Assembly (NCBI GenBank): GCA_903848125.1
Contig: CAINFN010000062.1
Location: 1-34,124 of the forward strand
Length of the DNA stretch: 34,124 bases
Direction: 5' to 3'
From: an uncultured Bacteroidota bacterium
Lineage (GTDB): Bacteria; Bacteroidota; Bacteroidia; Chitinophagales; Chitinophagaceae
Part shown: positions 4,763-13,308 of the stretch, piece by piece
How the letters are laid out: each line of letters starts with the position of its first letter
Numbering within the stretch: the stretch's first letter is position 1
Notes under the pieces: generated by a model
What the model saw: only the letters and a program-made list of their open reading frames with translations
Database searches by the model: none
What the model was told of the DNA's origin: nothing
Made by a program: the position numbers and the translations under genes

Positions 4763-4777
4763 GGGGTCTTAGACCCC
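4763..4777. repeat. short perfect inverted repeat GGGGTCT-T-AGACCCC
   Basis: Direct reading: 7-bp arms around a single base, in the intergenic region between a minus-strand gene and the arg leader. Confidence 0.85.
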
Positions 4778-4808
4778 ATTTGTCTATTTTATTTAATACT
4801 TTTATACC

Positions 4809-4828
4809 CTCCTTCCTATTAAAAGGAG
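4809..4828 (+). promoter_or_regulatory. hairpin sequestering the leader-ORF Shine-Dalgarno
   Basis: CTCCTT (4809-4814) pairs with AAGGAG (4823-4828), loop cctattaa; AGGAG lies 8 nt before the ATG at 4837. Confidence 0.5.
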
Positions 4829-4836
4829 TCATCTAA

Positions 4837-4962
4837 ATGAAACAGGTACAATTACATATTACTAAAACTTGTGCAATTACTGCACCAGTATCTGTTTTAA
4901 ATGAACCGAGCCCTATGATGACGTCTAGTATCGTCAGATTTTTCTGCCGACGTGGATTCTGA
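4837..4962 (+). CDS. putative arginine-operon leader peptide (41 aa): MKQVQLHITKTCAITAPVSVLNEPSPMMTSSIVRFFCRRGF
   Basis: ATG at 4837 with AGGAG at 8-nt spacing; TGA at 4960-4962; three Arg codons in the last eight (aga ... cga cgt); directly upstream of the arg operon and overlapped by hairpins. Confidence 0.6.
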   Translation: MKQVQLHITKTCAITAPVSVLNEPSPMMTSSIVRFFCRRGF

Positions 4963-4994
4963 TAGGACGAGCAATTGGCACTTGCCCCTATCAG
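4959..4994 (+). promoter_or_regulatory. attenuator-type hairpin overlapping leader stop codon
   Basis: Perfect 8-bp arms CTGATAGG (4959-4966)/CCTATCAG (4987-4994) plus inner GCAA/TTGC. Confidence 0.6.
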
Positions 4995-4997
4995 TGG

Positions 4998-5043
4998 AAA
5001 AAGCCCCAAAGAATCATTCTTACGCCAGCATTCTTCTTTTTTT
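4998..5043 (+). terminator. candidate conditional terminator in arg leader
   Basis: AAAAAG and AAGAAT on the 5' side can pair with ATTCTT-CTTTTT on the 3' side, ending in a 7-T run (5037-5043). Stem is A/T-rich and has a 5-nt bulge, so weak. Confidence 0.35.
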
Positions 5044-5058
5044 AAAATTAATAGCTCA

Positions 5059-5706
5059 TTGGAACCAAAAATTATAGTTCGCGTAGCCCACAGTGGGGAC
5101 GCTTCCTTTGCAAATACCATCACCGATGAAATGGCTTCTTCGGCGCAAGCGCGTGGGACGGGTATTGCTAAACGTAGCCCTGAATATGTGGCCAAAAAAA
5201 TAAATGAAGGCAAGTCTGTTATTGCAGTTACCGAAGATGGTACCTGGGTAGGTTTTTGTTATATTGAAGCTTGGCAACATGGACAGTTTGTGGCCAATAG
5301 TGGTTTAATTGTAGCCCCTGCTTTTAGAAAAACGGGCATTGCTAAAAAAATTAAGCAAACTATTTTTCAATTGTCTAGAGAAACCTATCCTACTGCTAAA
5401 ATATTTGGATTAACAACGGGTTTAGCGGTAATGAAAATAAATAGTGAATTAGGCTATGAACCAGTCACCTATAGTGAACTAACCGATGATGAAGAATTTT
5501 GGGCTGGTTGCAAAAGTTGTGTGAACTATGAAATTTTGATGAGTAAGGATCGTAAAAATTGCATGTGTACTGCTATGTTGTATGAACCCAAGCAACCGAA
5601 TACTGTTGAAGAAGTAGCGGCTGAATTTTCAAATAACTCTAAGTTGTACGAGCGTTTTATGAAAATAAAACAAAGTAAATTATTGAACTGGTTTAGAAAA
5701 AAATAA
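5059..5706 (+). CDS. GNAT-family N-acetyltransferase, first structural gene of the arg operon
   Basis: GNAT-like protein core (VIAVTEDGTWVGFCYIE, NSGLIVAPAFRKTGIAKKI). Track start is TTG at 4975; a second in-frame TTG at 5059 (MEPKIIVRVA...) lies after the leader structures and gives a more plausible N-terminus. Confidence 0.75.
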   Translation: MEPKIIVRVAHSGDASFANTITDEMASSAQARGTGIAKRSPEYVAKKINEGKSVIAVTEDGTWVGFCYIEAWQHGQFVANSGLIVAPAFRKTGIAKKIKQTIFQLSRETYPTAKIFGLTTGLAVMKINSELGYEPVTYSELTDDEEFWAGCKSCVNYEILMSKDRKNCMCTAMLYEPKQPNTVEEVAAEFSNNSKLYERFMKIKQSKLLNWFRKK

Positions 5707-5711
5707 ATGTT

Positions 5712-6911
5712 ATGGAAAAAGTTGTATTAGGATTTAGTGGAGGTTTAGATACTACGTTTTGTGTAAAATACTTAACGGAGGATAAAGGATTAGAAGTACA
5801 CAGTGTGATTGTGAATACCGGTGGTTTTACCGAAGAGGAATTAAAAAAAGTGGAAGCACATGCTTATGCTTTGGGTGTAAAAACACATACTTCTGTAAAT
5901 GCAGTGGAAGGCTACTATGATAGTATTATCAAGTATTTGATTTATGGAAATGTTTTAAAAAACAATACCTATCCATTAAGTGTGAGTGCAGAGCGATTAA
6001 GTCAAGCTTTACATATTGCGGAGCATGTAAAAAAAGTAGGTGCTAAATTAGTAGCCCATGGCAGTACGGGCGCTGGCAATGATCAGGTTCGTTTTGATAT
6101 GATATTTCAAATTATGATTCCTGGCATTGAGATTTTAACACCGATACGTGATTTACAATTAAGTAGAGAAGCAGAAATTGAATATTTAAAAGGGAAAGGT
6201 GTTCAAATGAATTTTGAAAAAGCGGCCTATTCAATTAATAAAGGGTTGTGGGGTACCAGTGTGGGTGGAAAAGAAACATTGAATTCAAAAGGGATGTTGC
6301 CAGAAAGTGCATGGCCAACTCAAATGTCAAAAGAAGGGGCGAGCGAAGAAATGGTGATTGGCTTTGAAAAAGGAGAAATTAAAAAAGTAAATGGTCAAGC
6401 ATTTGCGCATCCAACAGAGGCCATTCAATTTATACAATCTATTGCTGGTGCATATGGTATTGGAAGAGACATTCATGTAGGAGATACCATTATAGGAATT
6501 AAAGGACGTGTAGGTTTTGAAGCGGCAGCACCGATGGTGATATTAAAAGCACACCATGCTTTAGAAAAACATGTATTAACAAAGTGGCAATTATCTTGGA
6601 AGGATCAGTTGGCTTCTTTTTATGGCAACTGGTTACATGAGGGTCAGATATTAGATCCAGTAATGCGTGATATTGAAGCGTATTTAACCAATTCACAAGC
6701 ACAAGTTACTGGTCATGTATTTGTTCAATTAAATCCATATCGTTTCCAAATCATAGGTATTGAATCAGAGAATGATTTGATGAGTGCGAAATTTGGTAAG
6801 TATGGTGAAATGAACACAGGATTTACGGGTGCGGATGTAAGAGGGTTTACTAAAATATTTGGTAATCAAACAAGCATCTTTCATAATGTGAAAGAATCAA
6901 ATAAAAAATAA
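5712..6911 (+). CDS. argG: argininosuccinate synthase
   Basis: LGFSGGLDTTFCVKYL ATP-pyrophosphatase motif, AHGSTGAGNDQVRFD. Confidence 0.95.
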   Translation: MEKVVLGFSGGLDTTFCVKYLTEDKGLEVHSVIVNTGGFTEEELKKVEAHAYALGVKTHTSVNAVEGYYDSIIKYLIYGNVLKNNTYPLSVSAERLSQALHIAEHVKKVGAKLVAHGSTGAGNDQVRFDMIFQIMIPGIEILTPIRDLQLSREAEIEYLKGKGVQMNFEKAAYSINKGLWGTSVGGKETLNSKGMLPESAWPTQMSKEGASEEMVIGFEKGEIKKVNGQAFAHPTEAIQFIQSIAGAYGIGRDIHVGDTIIGIKGRVGFEAAAPMVILKAHHALEKHVLTKWQLSWKDQLASFYGNWLHEGQILDPVMRDIEAYLTNSQAQVTGHVFVQLNPYRFQIIGIESENDLMSAKFGKYGEMNTGFTGADVRGFTKIFGNQTSIFHNVKESNKK

Positions 6912-6923
6912 ACGAATTCTAAA

Positions 6924-7904
6924 ATGCAAAAAGTTAATATTGGAATAGTAGGAGGTGCAGGCTATACAGGTGGTGAATTACTGCGTGTAGTTTTGCGTCA
7001 TCCTAATGCACATATTAGTTTTGTGCACAGTACTAGTAGCGCAGAAGAATTGGTGAGCAAGGTACACACTGACTTAGTGGGGGATACGGATTTAAAATTT
7101 GTAGCAGCATTAGATCAAAATATAGATGTTTTGTTTTTATGTGTTGGTCATGGAGATGCAAAAAAATTCTTGGCTGCTCATGATATAAAATCAAGTATAA
7201 AAATAATTGATCTGTCTCAGGATTTTAGGTTAGCTGAAGGAGCTTCTATTGGTACAAGACAATTTGTATATGGTTTACCAGAATTAAACAAAGCAGCAAT
7301 AACTAGTGCACAAAATATTGCCAACCCAGGTTGTTTTGCCACAGCCATTCAATTAGGTTTATTGCCTTTGGCTTCAAAAGGATTATTAAAGGAAGTATAT
7401 ACAACAGGTATTACTGGTGCTACGGGTGCTGGCCAAGCTTTGTCAGTAACCAGTCATTTTAGTTGGAGAGCCAATAACATTCAAGCCTATAAAACTTTAC
7501 AACATCAACACTTAAATGAAATAGAAGAAAGTTTGGCTACACTTCAAGGCAATAAAAATGCGGAAGTGCACTTTGTGCCATGGAGAGGCGATTTTACAAG
7601 AGGTATTTTTGTGACTTCAGTAATCTCCTCCGATTTAAGTATGGAGGCTATTTACGAATTATACAATGCCTATTATGAGTCGCATCCTTTTACACATGTT
7701 TCTAAAAACAATATTGATTTAAAACAAGTAGTGAATACCAATAAATGTTTAATTCATATTGAAAAGCAAGGAAATAAAATTGCCATTCATTCGGTGATTG
7801 ATAATTTATTGAAAGGTGCTGTAGGTCAAGCGGTGCAAAATATGAATTTAATTTTCGGATTAGAAGAAGGCACTGGATTACAATTAAAAGCAAATTATTT
7901 TTAA
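6924..7904 (+). CDS. argC: N-acetyl-gamma-glutamyl-phosphate reductase
   Basis: GIVGGAGYTGGELLR nucleotide-binding motif; NPGCFATAIQL active-site Cys motif. Confidence 0.95.
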   Translation: MQKVNIGIVGGAGYTGGELLRVVLRHPNAHISFVHSTSSAEELVSKVHTDLVGDTDLKFVAALDQNIDVLFLCVGHGDAKKFLAAHDIKSSIKIIDLSQDFRLAEGASIGTRQFVYGLPELNKAAITSAQNIANPGCFATAIQLGLLPLASKGLLKEVYTTGITGATGAGQALSVTSHFSWRANNIQAYKTLQHQHLNEIEESLATLQGNKNAEVHFVPWRGDFTRGIFVTSVISSDLSMEAIYELYNAYYESHPFTHVSKNNIDLKQVVNTNKCLIHIEKQGNKIAIHSVIDNLLKGAVGQAVQNMNLIFGLEEGTGLQLKANYF

Positions 7905-7930
7905 ACTCTATTGATTATAAATTTTTCACC

Positions 7931-9082
7931 ATGTCATTATTCAACGTATACCCTTTAAACCCCATCGCAATTATCAAAGCTGCAGGCAGCCGCGTTTGGG
8001 ATGATAAGGGGCAGGAATATTTAGACATGTATGGTGGACACGCTGTTATAAGTATTGGTCATACGCAACCACATTGGGTAAAGCGTATCGAAGATCAATT
8101 GCATGCGATTGCATTTTATTCAAATTCTGTCATCATGCCTATTCAGGAGCAACTTGCAACTGCATTGAATGAAATAAGTGGGAAAAAGGATTTTCAATTA
8201 TTTTTATGCAATAGTGGGGCGGAAGCCAATGAAAATGCATTAAAATTAGCTTCCTTTCATACCGGCAGAAAAAAAATCATAGCGTTCAAGAAATCATTTC
8301 ACGGAAGAACTTCTTTAGCAGTGGCAGCAACGGACAATCCAAGTATTGTTGCCCCTGTGAATGAAACAGATAATATTATCTTTTTACCATTCAATGATGT
8401 GGCTGCTTTAGAAGCTTGCTTTGCAAGCAATGGTGCTGAAATTGCTGCTGTCATTATTGAAGGCATTCAAGGTGTTGCTGGAATTCATAAGGCAAACGAT
8501 GCATTTTTACAAGCCATTCGAAAAACATGTGATATACATGGTGCTGTATATATAGCTGATAGTGTGCAATGTGGTTATGGAAGATCAGGTCAATTTTTTG
8601 CGCACGATCATGCAGGAGTTAATGCAGATATTTATTCAATGGCCAAGGGAATGGGAAACGGATTTCCTATTGGCGGTATTTTAATTGCACCCCATATTCA
8701 AGCAAAGATGGGTATGCTAGGTACCACATTTGGGGGCAATCCTCTAGCTTGTGCTGCCGCATTAGCAGTGATTGAAGTAATGCAAAAAGAAAATTTGATT
8801 AAAGCTGCTCAAGAAAAAGGGGCCTATTTAATAAACGCATTAAAAAATACAGAAGGAGTGAAGACGGTAAGAGGTAGAGGTTTAATGATTGGATTTGAAA
8901 TGGAAGCAGGGTTGGAGGACATTCGGAAAGTATTATTGAATGATTTGAAAATATTTACTGGTGAGGCTAAGCCAAATGTGGTGAGACTATTACCGTCATT
9001 AGCGATTAGCATGGAGGATATAAATTTATTTTTAACCGGGTTGAATAAGGCGATTCAACTTTTGAAGCAAAAGAACGATTAA
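7931..9082 (+). CDS. argD: acetylornithine (or succinylornithine) aminotransferase
   Basis: Class III PLP aminotransferase: NSGAEANENALKLAS, FHGRTSLAVAAT, DSVQCGYGRSG, SMAKGMGNGFPIGG. Confidence 0.92.
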   Translation: MSLFNVYPLNPIAIIKAAGSRVWDDKGQEYLDMYGGHAVISIGHTQPHWVKRIEDQLHAIAFYSNSVIMPIQEQLATALNEISGKKDFQLFLCNSGAEANENALKLASFHTGRKKIIAFKKSFHGRTSLAVAATDNPSIVAPVNETDNIIFLPFNDVAALEACFASNGAEIAAVIIEGIQGVAGIHKANDAFLQAIRKTCDIHGAVYIADSVQCGYGRSGQFFAHDHAGVNADIYSMAKGMGNGFPIGGILIAPHIQAKMGMLGTTFGGNPLACAAALAVIEVMQKENLIKAAQEKGAYLINALKNTEGVKTVRGRGLMIGFEMEAGLEDIRKVLLNDLKIFTGEAKPNVVRLLPSLAISMEDINLFLTGLNKAIQLLKQKND

Positions 9083-9085
9083 GTC

Positions 9086-10054
9086 ATGAAACAATTTATT
9101 TCAGTGAAGGATGTGAAGGATATTAATGTATTGGTAAAGCAAGCATTACACTATAAAGCAAATCCATTTGCAGATAAGGCATTGGGTGCAAATAAAAGAA
9201 TTGGATTACTTTTTTTAAATCCAAGTTTAAGAACTAGATTAAGTACACAAGTAGCGGCACAGCAATTAGGTATGGAGCCAATTGTTTTTAATGTAGATAA
9301 GGAAGGATGGGCTTTGGAATTTATAGAAGGGGCCATTATGAACGGAACTACCGTAGAGCATATAAAAGATGCAGCACCTGTATTAGGTAATTATTTTGAT
9401 ATTTTATGTATTAGAACTTTTCCTGGCTTAGTCAATAAAGAAGAAGACTATAATGAAAAAATAATCAACCAGTTTATTAAATATGCCGGTATTCCTATTG
9501 TAAGTTTAGAATCTGCAACCCTTCATCCATTGCAATCCTTAACGGATATTATTACCATACAAGAGTCGATGGCAGCTAACCCAATCTTTATCAACAAGAA
9601 ACCTAAAATTGTTTTAACCTGGGCGCCACATATCAAACCTATCCCACAATGTGTAGCCAATAGTTTTAGCGAATGGGTAAATGCATGGGGAGCAGCCGAT
9701 TTTGTAATCACCCATCCTAAAGGCCACGAACTTTCCACTGAATTTACAAAGGGAGCGAGTATTACCAACGATCAAGAAGCGGCATTAAAAGAGGCAGATT
9801 TTGTGTACGTAAAAAATTGGAGTAGCTATGAACAATATGGAAAAATTTTATGTGAAGATGCTCAATGGATGATGAATAATAATAAACTAGCACTTACCAA
9901 TAATGCAAAAGTGATGCATTGTTTACCTGTAAGAAGAAATGTAGAATTGAGTGATGAAATTTTGGATGGGCCTAATAGCTTAGTAACTAAAGAAGCGGCT
10001 AATAGAGTATGGGCGGCACAAGCGGTGTTGTCTGAAATTTTGAAAAATCATTAA
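9086..10054 (+). CDS. argF': N-acylornithine carbamoyltransferase (acetyl- or succinyl-ornithine type)
   Basis: SLRTRLSTQVAA carbamoyl-phosphate motif, LESATLHPLQSLTDIITIQE, MHCLPVRRNVELSDE; features of the acylornithine rather than ornithine transcarbamylase branch. Confidence 0.88.
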   Translation: MKQFISVKDVKDINVLVKQALHYKANPFADKALGANKRIGLLFLNPSLRTRLSTQVAAQQLGMEPIVFNVDKEGWALEFIEGAIMNGTTVEHIKDAAPVLGNYFDILCIRTFPGLVNKEEDYNEKIINQFIKYAGIPIVSLESATLHPLQSLTDIITIQESMAANPIFINKKPKIVLTWAPHIKPIPQCVANSFSEWVNAWGAADFVITHPKGHELSTEFTKGASITNDQEAALKEADFVYVKNWSSYEQYGKILCEDAQWMMNNNKLALTNNAKVMHCLPVRRNVELSDEILDGPNSLVTKEAANRVWAAQAVLSEILKNH

Positions 10055-10092
10055 AAATTCAGGTTAATAATAAAACGAATTGAATTAATTAT

Positions 10093-10875
10093 ATGGAATC
10101 ATTGTATGTTATTAAAATAGGAGGCAATATTGTTGACAATCCAACTTTGTTAACTGCTTGCTTGCAATCTTTTGCGAAAGTAAAGGGCCAAGTTATTTTA
10201 GTGCATGGTGGTGGTAAGTTAGCTACTAGTATAGCTACTTCTATGGGCGTGGAACAAAAAATGGTACAAGGTAGACGTATTACTGATGAAGCTACTTTAA
10301 AAATAGTCACTATGGTGTACGCTGGCTATATTAATAAAAACATAGTGGCGCAATTGCAAGCAGAAGGCCTTGATGCTATTGGATTATCTGGTGTAGATGG
10401 CAATTTAATTCTTGCACATAAAAGAATCAATGCCGCAATTGATTTTGGTTTTGTTGGGGATATCGATCAAATAAATACCCCTTTGCTTTTACAGTTACTT
10501 TCTAACAACAGTAGACTAGTGATAGCCCCTATTACACATGATGGTCATGGCCAATTACTTAATACCAATGCAGACACCATTGCGCAAAGTATTGCAACCT
10601 CTTTGGCTAAGACCTACCAAGTACATCTGATATATGGCTTTGAAAAAGAAGGCGTACTAAGTGATATTGACAATCCTAGTTCTGTAATTTTGCAAATTGA
10701 TAATGCAGCATATAACAATTTGAAAGAAAAAAAGGTCATATTTGAAGGAATGATTCCCAAAATTGACAATGCTTTTTCGGCACTTGAAAATGGAGTACAA
10801 TCTGTGATCATAGGCAAAGCAGAAAGATTAAATGAATTAATACAAGGCACCGCAGGTACCACAATTAAATTATAA
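10093..10875 (+). CDS. argB: acetylglutamate kinase
   Basis: VIKIGGNIVDN, LVHGGGKLATSIA, GLSGVDGNL, VIIGKAERLNELIQGTAGTTI. Confidence 0.93.
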   Translation: MESLYVIKIGGNIVDNPTLLTACLQSFAKVKGQVILVHGGGKLATSIATSMGVEQKMVQGRRITDEATLKIVTMVYAGYINKNIVAQLQAEGLDAIGLSGVDGNLILAHKRINAAIDFGFVGDIDQINTPLLLQLLSNNSRLVIAPITHDGHGQLLNTNADTIAQSIATSLAKTYQVHLIYGFEKEGVLSDIDNPSSVILQIDNAAYNNLKEKKVIFEGMIPKIDNAFSALENGVQSVIIGKAERLNELIQGTAGTTIKL

Positions 10876-11978
10876 TGTCAGAACATTACGATACCGCTAA
10901 TTTTAATAACATAGCATTGCTGCAAAAGGATGCTGTTGACTTATTAAAAAATTTAATAGCTATTCCATCTTTTAGTAAGGAGGAAGATAAAACAGCGGCG
11001 CACATTATACAATTTTTGACAGCACGTACTATTAAAGTAGAGCAAGCTAAAAATAATGTATGGGCCACTAATTTACATTTTGATACTGCTAAGCCTTCCT
11101 TATTATTAAACTCACACCATGATACGGTGAGGCCTAATAAGGGCTATACCCTTGAGCCTTTTCATCCAATTGAAAAAGAAGGTAAAATATATGGATTAGG
11201 CAGCAATGATGCGGGTGGTTGTTTAGTGAGCTTAATAGCTACTTTCTTGTATTTTTATCCTCAAACTAATTTACCTTATAATATTGTTTTAGTAGCTTCT
11301 GCAGAAGAAGAAATTTCAGGACACGATGGTATTGAATTGGCTTTACCTCAATTGCCTACTATTGATTTTGGTATTGTTGGAGAACCTACTAAAATGGAAA
11401 TGGCCATTGCGGAGCGAGGCTTACTTGTGTTAGATGTGGTGGCAACTGGAATTGCTGGGCACGCAGCAAGAGAAGAAGGGGTAAATGCTTTGTACAAAAT
11501 ACTACCTGATATCGATTGGTTTAAAAGTTTTGAATTTGAAAAAGTATCACCCTTGTTGGGAAAAGTGAAGATGAGTGTTACAGCAATAGAAACAGATAAT
11601 AAGCAACACAATGTGGTCCCTTCTAATTGTAAAATGGTGGTGGACGTTCGGGTGAATGAATTGTATTCTTTTGAAGAAATTTTGGAAACTATTGGCCAGC
11701 ATATAAATGCAATAGCTACACCCAGAAGTGTAAGAATGCGTTCAACTAGCATAGCACTGGACCACCCTTTAGTTAAAGCAGGTTTGCTATTAGGAAAAGG
11801 GTATTATGGTTCTGTAACTACTTCAGATAAAGCATTAATGCCTTTCCCTGCCTTAAAAATGGGACCTGGTGATTCTGCAAGAAGCCATACAGCGGATGAA
11901 TTTATTTTTATAAAAGAGATAGAGGAGGGAATTGTAACTTATATTCAATTACTTGAAAAAATGTTTAACCATGAGTAA
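10875..11978 (+). CDS. argE: M20-family acylornithine deacetylase
   Basis: LLNSHHDTV, GLGSNDAGGCL, ASAEEEISG metallopeptidase motifs; overlaps argB stop by 1 nt (TAATG). Confidence 0.88.
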   Translation: MSEHYDTANFNNIALLQKDAVDLLKNLIAIPSFSKEEDKTAAHIIQFLTARTIKVEQAKNNVWATNLHFDTAKPSLLLNSHHDTVRPNKGYTLEPFHPIEKEGKIYGLGSNDAGGCLVSLIATFLYFYPQTNLPYNIVLVASAEEEISGHDGIELALPQLPTIDFGIVGEPTKMEMAIAERGLLVLDVVATGIAGHAAREEGVNALYKILPDIDWFKSFEFEKVSPLLGKVKMSVTAIETDNKQHNVVPSNCKMVVDVRVNELYSFEEILETIGQHINAIATPRSVRMRSTSIALDHPLVKAGLLLGKGYYGSVTTSDKALMPFPALKMGPGDSARSHTADEFIFIKEIEEGIVTYIQLLEKMFNHE

Positions 11979-13308
11979 GCTTTGGCAAAAAAATAGCAAC
12001 ACATCTGCCTTGGTAGAAAAATTTACCATTGGAAATGATCAAGCCATGGATACTTATCTGGCTGCCTACGATGTATTGGGGTCTATTGCACACACTACCA
12101 TGTTGTCTGAGGTTGGTTTACTAACTGCAGTAGAACAAACCCAACTTAAAAAAGCGTTAATTGAAATTTACCAAAAAATACAAGCGGGCGAATTCAAATT
12201 GGATCCAGGAGTGGAAGACATTCATTCACAAGTAGAAATGATGTTGACTGAAAGTTTAGGAGATGTTGGAAAAAAAATTCATAGTGCTAGGAGTAGGAAT
12301 GATCAAGTATTAGTAGACATTAAATTATTTTTACGTGCCGAATTAATTAGTATGAGTGCGGCTGTTCAATCATTTTTTACTTTACTTCAAGAAAAAAGCG
12401 AAGCACATAAAAATGATTTACTTCCTGGGTATACTCATTTGCAATTGGCCATGCCTTCTTCATTTGGTTTGTGGTTAGGTGCTTATGCCGAAAGCTTAGT
12501 TGATGATATGACTATGTTACAAGCAGCGTATACAATTGTAAATAAAAATCCCTTAGGATCAGCAGCGGGGTATGGCTCCTCTTTTCCTATCAATAGAAAA
12601 AGAACTACTGAATTATTGGGTTTTGAAACGCTTAACTATAATGTGGTATATGCCCAAATGGGTCGTGGAAAAGCTGAGCGAGTAACTGCTATGGCATTGG
12701 CCAATATTGCAGATACCTTATCTAAACTAAGTATGGATGCATGCTTGTTTATGAACCAAAATTTTGGATTTATACAATTCCCCGAAGAATTAACTACTGG
12801 ATCAAGTATTATGCCGCATAAAAAAAATCCAGATGTTTTTGAATTAATAAGAGCTTATTGTAATCGAATTAAAGCACTGCCAAATGAAATTATGATGATG
12901 ACTACTAATTTACCATCTGGGTATCATCGTGATTTACAATTATTAAAAGAGCATTTATTTCCTGCGTTTACACAACTAAAAAACTGCATGGAGATGGCTA
13001 CTTTAATGATTCAAAACATGGTCGTAAAAAAAGATTTATTGGAAGATCCAAAATATCAATATTTATTTAGTGTTGAAGAAGTGAATAAATTAGTAATAGG
13101 TGGAATGCCTTTTAGAGATGCTTATAAGCAAGTAGGCTTGGCCATTGAAGCCGGTAATTTTACTTATACCACCCAAATGAAGCATACACACGAGGGTAGT
13201 TTGGGGAATCTTTGTACTTCTCAAATAGCAGCAACTATGCAAAAAGTGGTAGCATCTATGGAAATTGTTAAAGTAGAGCAACAAATTAAACAATTATTGA
13301 AACTTTAA
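11971..13308 (+). CDS. argH: argininosuccinate lyase
   Basis: GSSIMPHKKNPDVFE fumarase/lyase signature, SARSRNDQVLVD. ATG at 11971 (MSKLWQKN) is preferred over the track start at 11953; overlaps argE end by 8 nt. Confidence 0.95.
   Translation: MSKLWQKNSNTSALVEKFTIGNDQAMDTYLAAYDVLGSIAHTTMLSEVGLLTAVEQTQLKKALIEIYQKIQAGEFKLDPGVEDIHSQVEMMLTESLGDVGKKIHSARSRNDQVLVDIKLFLRAELISMSAAVQSFFTLLQEKSEAHKNDLLPGYTHLQLAMPSSFGLWLGAYAESLVDDMTMLQAAYTIVNKNPLGSAAGYGSSFPINRKRTTELLGFETLNYNVVYAQMGRGKAERVTAMALANIADTLSKLSMDACLFMNQNFGFIQFPEELTTGSSIMPHKKNPDVFELIRAYCNRIKALPNEIMMMTTNLPSGYHRDLQLLKEHLFPAFTQLKNCMEMATLMIQNMVVKKDLLEDPKYQYLFSVEEVNKLVIGGMPFRDAYKQVGLAIEAGNFTYTTQMKHTHEGSLGNLCTSQIAATMQKVVASMEIVKVEQQIKQLLKL

Follow-up and report, generated by a model that had tools for sequence, protein, structure and literature searches.

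Attenuators of the trp, his and leu type present a translated leader ORF upstream of a biosynthetic operon; toward its end, this ORF contains codons for the amino acid that the operon produces, and its stop codon belongs to the 5′ arm of a hairpin. These three features are shared by the locus described here, upstream of the arg operon of a Sediminibacterium (Chitinophagaceae) genome. It differs from these attenuators by its putative signal, arginine, by a few Arg codons instead of a long run, by a peptide that is conserved beyond these codons in many genera, by the lack of a conserved terminator and, in many genera, by a predicted loop-loop contact between its main hairpin, hereafter P1, and a second hairpin.

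Translation arrest is induced in TnaC by tryptophan and in the fungal arginine attenuator peptide (arg-2/CPA1), which also concerns arginine synthesis, by arginine. With TnaC, SpeFL and the fungal peptide, our leader shares a conserved peptide sequence and a probable control near the stop codon. In contrast to them, it has Arg codons near the stop; no sequence relation was seen, the likeness being one of peptide conservation only.

In Staphylococcus aureus, the Arg codons of a short upstream ORF, rbfL, sense arginine limitation, and rbfL blocks the ribosome binding site and lowers expression at low arginine (PMC13009471). The sensor is of the same kind as the one proposed here, but the target gene is unrelated and a P1-type hairpin is not described for rbfL in the portion of that report considered here. 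In the same phylum as our locus, transcriptome mapping of Flavobacterium psychrophilum gave clues of leader-peptide attenuation upstream of amino acid operons (PMC9723704); the main text of that study names neither an arginine leader nor such an RNA or peptide family. In the main text of a comparative RNA survey (PMC8632094), neither an argG nor a Chitinophaga element is mentioned, and no paper on an arginine leader in Bacteroidota was found in the openly readable literature searched. Rfam gave no match in the window at the gathering score and, at E ≤ 5, only one irrelevant match on the opposite strand. The leader peptide has no NCBIfam match and its versions from other genera have no Pfam match. 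We propose that the leader peptide and P1, which have no counterpart in Rfam, Pfam or NCBIfam, together represent a new variant of attenuation.

The arg operon and its putative promoter region

The window, i.e., the whole stretch of DNA analysed, corresponds to 34,124 nt of DNA from a freshwater Sediminibacterium, and all features described below are on its forward strand. The putatively regulated operon starts with a gene encoding a GNAT acetyltransferase (5059–5706; Pfam matches PF13508 and PF00583), followed from 5712 to 13308 by argG (5712–6911, Pfam match) and then argC-, argD-, argF-, argB-, argE- and argH-like genes, the names other than argG being assigned by reading the translations. 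The mechanical ORF call puts the GNAT start at TTG 4975, whereas conservation puts it at TTG 5059, which is kept genus-wide in the Sediminibacterium relatives; most GNAT genes have a weak start codon (TTG or GTG). The gene is present in 52 of the 60 other congeneric genomes and in 311 of the 399 Chitinophagaceae genomes. Our congeneric set contains 52 loci (upstream DNA from 51 genomes, plus the window), one further GNAT-bearing genome being left out because of a partial gene at a contig end.

Upstream of the operon, the sequences TTTG (4779–4782) and TACTTTTA (4797–4804) resemble the −33/−7 elements of Bacteroidota promoters. The arrangement TTTG...TACTTTTA is kept at the corresponding place in close relatives from the window's clade and, in other genera, 97% of 35 sequences, versus 9% of shuffles, carry TA-N2-3-TTTG within the 60 nt that precede the leader start. 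From these conserved elements, we infer that the region 4779–4804 is a promoter, so that transcription probably begins before position 4837, as the leader postulated in the initial annotation would require. Further upstream, GGGGTCTTAGACCCC (4763–4777) followed by a T-rich stretch forms a terminator-like palindrome; in close relatives, this region is G/C-rich yet variable.

ArgR is the classical controller of arginine synthesis. No ArgR domain (PF01316) was detected in the 61 genomes searched from the genus and the order, including the window's own genome (79% complete), whereas the control search was positive for 9 of 14 reference genomes, one of them a Bacteroides.

The leader peptide and its relatives

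The initial annotation pointed to an ORF of 41 codons, missing from the ORF track, with an AGGAG located 8 nt upstream and three Arg codons among its last eight codons. All these elements are present. The unannotated ORF (4837–4962, 41 codons plus the stop codon TGA at 4960–4962) encodes the 41 aa peptide MKQVQLHITKTCAITAPVSVLNEPSPMMTSSIVRFFCRRGF, and the Shine-Dalgarno-like AGGAG (4824–4828) corresponds to a G/A-rich site conserved in the window's clade. The Arg codons (4936–4953) are AGA 4936, CGA 4948 and CGT 4951, the last two encoding the conserved RR of a terminal RRG[F/C]* motif. A leader ORF ending with this motif, with its stop codon inside the 5′ arm of P1, precedes the GNAT-argG operon in 50 of the 52 congeneric loci, and RR is conserved in all 50 core-bearing loci; the conservation of the small ORF and of its Arg codons anticipated by the initial annotation is thus observed. 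The codons of the motif vary synonymously (CGT/CGC, GGA/GGT/GGG and, in one case, CGA/AGA), a pattern indicative of selection at the amino acid level.

Leader homologues in the window's clade are 30–41 aa long, with ω = 0.40 versus 1.06 and 0.97 in the shifted frames (48 sequences), and ω = 0.35 after dropping the last six codons. In other genera, the leaders are peptides of 36–41 aa of the type MNNILTHTKQFAFHAPITSGVYAVGFDVFTFSRPRRRPVF, with Arg codons farther upstream of the stop codon. Their median ω is 0.13, the shifted frames giving 1.7 and 2.1 (35 sequences; proportion of synonymous differences 0.71, of non-synonymous differences 0.23), and ω is 0.11 for the N-terminal, Arg-free part. These low values relative to shifted frames indicate that the Arg-free N-terminal half is conserved too, although much less so in the window's own clade than across the other genera. 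Purifying selection on the leader thus extends beyond the sensor codons, as in arrest peptides, more weakly in the window's clade. The HTK, FH, V and D positions are invariant, the position of the start codon is identical in 35/35 of the sequences from other genera (17 ATG, 17 GTG and 1 TTG) and the stop codon of the leaders associated with P1 is always UGA. The coding-type substitutions and the conserved start indicate that the leader ORF is translated.

In some loci (L073, L077, L086, L089, L116 and L119, and also L125, L139, L151, L174 and L181), the ATG is absent and the frame is open to RRG[F/C]*; judging from the open frame, these leaders must use another start codon, as in the genera with GTG or TTG. 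Leader read-through or frameshift into the GNAT gene was rejected, since the intervening frame is closed in most relatives.

We identified a third group of leaders in Chitinophagaceae, which ends with RRPRI* and begins at a conserved TTG. These leaders (L302–L321) precede the same GNAT gene in many P1-lacking Chitinophagaceae, and some of them are followed by hairpins such as GCAGGT...ACCTGC. Their profile aligns with that of the P1-group leaders from other genera (hhalign probability 87%), and their N-terminal half has a pN of 0.45 for a pS of 0.72. In relatives at the order level, unrelated-looking Arg-rich leaders are present before the same gene, e.g., in L051, where RRRR* is followed by a strong terminator (GACTAC...GTAGTC GTTTTT). 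The RRPRI* and RRRR* leaders show that Arg-rich leaders before the arg operon are widespread, P1 being part of one version.

The P1 hairpin and the downstream region

P1 (4959–4994) is composed of two outer arms, 4959–4966 (CTGATAGG) and 4987–4994 (CCTATCAG), an internal loop ACGA (4967–4970), an inner stem (4971–4974/4982–4985) and an apical loop TTGGCAC (4975–4981). Together with the end of the leader ORF and its stop codon, it forms a conserved core of 52 nt (4948–4999; covariance model R1). This core, CGACGYGGNTKCTGATAGGACGAGCARYTGGCMNTTGCCCCTATCAGTGRA, is present in 50 of the 52 congeneric loci, the exceptions being L017, cut by a contig end, and L015, which has a deletion. In L015, the core was apparently lost between CCGAC and CTGTTC, with the leader ORF and the GNAT gene retained; the loss may be natural or may reflect misassembly. 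Among named genomes, a pattern scan detected 120 places, with the same GNAT start downstream in all but a few. In the window's genome, the core is in single copy, and a search for a second copy of the P1 hairpin with its arms found none.

The covariance model detected the core in 111 of the 399 Chitinophagaceae genomes (E < 1e-3), from 32 genera, and nothing convincing outside of this family. Among the best 89 matches, which were aligned (the weakest, L291, is probably spurious), 87 have the GNAT gene directly downstream, and argG is often detectable beyond it within the fetched DNA. One genome, G424, carries two copies of the element, L288 and L289 (E = 2.6e-5 and 6.4e-4), both of which precede a GNAT gene. 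P1 accompanies about one third of the GNAT-bearing genomes of the family and is missing from about two thirds of them, indicating that it is not essential to arginine control.

The pairs of P1 were counted on 81 distinct sequences: 93.9% of the cells are paired, versus 33–41% in slid controls, and 83 cells are changed on both sides, versus a mean of 24 in shuffles. The outer arms are almost invariant; their fifth pair occurs as C-G (37 distinct sequences), U-A (35) or U-G (9), and the inner stem also covaries. The hairpin 4959–4966/4987–4994 proposed in the initial annotation is therefore confirmed as a conserved and covarying main stem. The structures thought to compete with it are not conserved in the same way. 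The letters of TGACG (4919–4923) and CGTCA (4932–4936) are present, but their pairing is kept only in a few close relatives, and neither the alternative CGTC/GACG pairing (4932–4952) nor CCTAT (4912–4916), a supposed competitor for 4962–4966, is kept beyond such relatives. Inside the leader ORF, TGACG-N8-CGTCA (4919–4936) followed by GATTTTTC looks like a terminator, and a similar hairpin is present at the same place in a few close relatives only.

In about 50 members of the element from other genera, the apical loop of P1, NACCA, faces a downstream hairpin GGA-YUGGUNR-UCC. The variable pair N:N′ of NACCA/UGGUN is complementary in 27/52 cases, versus a mean of 12.5 ± 3 in shuffles that ignore relatedness, and the second hairpin is altered on both sides (e.g., GCA/UGC, AGA/UCU). 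These observations support a loop-loop (kissing) contact between P1 and the second hairpin in these genera. In Sediminibacterium, the P1 loop has changed to UGGC, and 64% of sequences, versus 37% of shuffles, contain a 4-nt complement of it farther downstream, most often GCCA. This weakly suggests a similar contact in the genus, for which the partner in the window, proposed from complementarity, would be GCCAG (5024–5028), facing TTGGC (4975–4979). A long helix between AGTGRAAA, at the end of P1, and a downstream TTTYCAYT was rejected (mean p = 0.43 versus shuffles).

The A/T-rich stem with a T run (4998–5043) that the initial annotation placed after the hairpin is probably not a conserved part of the element. 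The T run before 5043 is present, but the stem is specific to the window and its role as a terminator was rejected, since it is not conserved in relatives and does not pass the terminator criterion, which gave zero matches in the post-hairpin region of the window. The whole leader of the window folds just 1.65 sd below its own shuffles. Between P1 and the GNAT start, terminator-like hairpins are present in 64% of Sediminibacterium sequences versus 29% of shuffles, and in 43% versus 35% in other genera, without clear excess. In Sediminibacterium, they vary in sequence at the same place (AACAC/GTGTT, GCC/GGC, ACGC/GTGT). They do not overlap P1, exclusive pairing was not seen, and no intrinsic terminator is conserved across the family. 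Transcription termination is thus a plausible output in some lineages only.

Candidate mechanisms of arginine sensing

We assumed the usual ribosome footprint, which reaches about 12 nt beyond the first base of the codon in the A site. With AGA 4936 or CGA 4948 in the A site, P1 can still fold: in the latter case, the ribosome covers the RNA up to about 4960, and the folding energy of P1 with the RNA hidden up to 4960 is −9.6 kcal/mol. In contrast, P1 is lost (−4.3) when the ribosome occupies CGT 4951 or the stop codon. Geometry and folding alone thus let the position of the ribosome decide whether P1 can form, and they imply that P1 is hidden chiefly under ample arginine and not under scarcity. 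Stalling at low arginine would thus allow P1 to form, as happens in the trp leader. This reverses the initial annotation, in which a ribosome stalled at CGA-CGT would mask the 5′ arm of P1. Its broader proposal of an arginine leader peptide upstream of an arg operon is supported by the conserved ORF, its Arg codons and the covarying main stem, as well as by the probable promoter upstream of 4837 and the absence of ArgR in relatives.

We consider it likely, from comparative sequence data, that the arg operon is controlled by a cis-acting arginine sensor combining the translated leader peptide and a structured RNA. Under a shortage of charged tRNA-Arg, the ribosome would halt on the Arg codons just upstream of P1, P1 would fold and the operon would be expressed; in many genera, the loop of the folded P1 would then contact the second hairpin. 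When arginine is ample, the ribosome would reach the stop codon and cover the whole 5′ arm of P1, which would stay open, and expression of the operon would fall, the last step being possibly premature termination in some lineages and a block of another kind elsewhere. That the folded P1 corresponds to the ON state is deduced from the stalling geometry and from the way a biosynthetic operon would be expected to behave.

A classical trp-type transcription attenuator, with P1 as the antiterminator and a downstream hairpin plus U tract as the terminator, is a possible reading toward which we do not lean. It agrees with a first hairpin whose 5′ arm contains the leader stop codon, as in trpL, with the excess of terminator-like hairpins in Sediminibacterium and with the terminator that follows RRRR* in L051, but the terminator criterion gave no match in the window, the other genera show no clear excess and the terminator-like hairpins do not overlap P1. 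As neither the competing hairpins nor a terminator exclusive with P1 is conserved, we do not classify the element as a proven transcription attenuator in the strict sense suggested by the initial annotation. The output could also be the translation start of the GNAT gene, through pairing of the downstream hairpin with the start region. RNAalifold (46 sequences) does predict a pairing between the second hairpin and the region of the GNAT start codon, and the start codons are mostly weak; however, 98% of start regions swapped between species pair as well or better, so that this pairing was rejected and such control seems quite unlikely. It is highly improbable that P1 acts as a palindromic DNA operator bound by an unknown repressor, with an incidental ORF: an inverted repeat with almost invariant arms would suit an operator, but the U-G intermediates in the covarying outer pair, the covariation of the inner stem, the coding signature running up to the leader stop and the single copy of the core in the genome all argue against it.

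The Arg-free half of the peptide is conserved beyond the needs of codon-based attenuation, which counts against sensing by codons only. A nascent-chain sensor, in which free arginine or a related metabolite would cause the peptide in the ribosome tunnel to arrest translation near its stop codon and P1 would read the arrested ribosome, could account for the low ω of this half (35 sequences), for the invariant positions of the peptide, for the related peptides of the RRPRI* group and for the UGA stop throughout the P1 group. We nevertheless find it rather doubtful, because both the window's clade and the RRPRI* group show much weaker conservation of the N-terminal half, P1 pairing also explains the invariant UGA and Arg codons near the stop suit codon sensing. 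Its extension, a Chitinophagaceae arrest peptide of about 40 aa sensing arginine in the tunnel and signalling to a kissing-loop RNA that replaces ArgR, appears slightly more doubtful still. The cis-acting sensor combining leader translation and P1 remains our preferred reading, and its conserved Arg-free half raises the question of whether some attenuation leader peptides are themselves metabolite sensors. The leader and P1 probably tune arginine production to supply in these ArgR-lacking bacteria, and an RNA and peptide element present across 32 genera would explain arginine control in Chitinophagaceae without ArgR.
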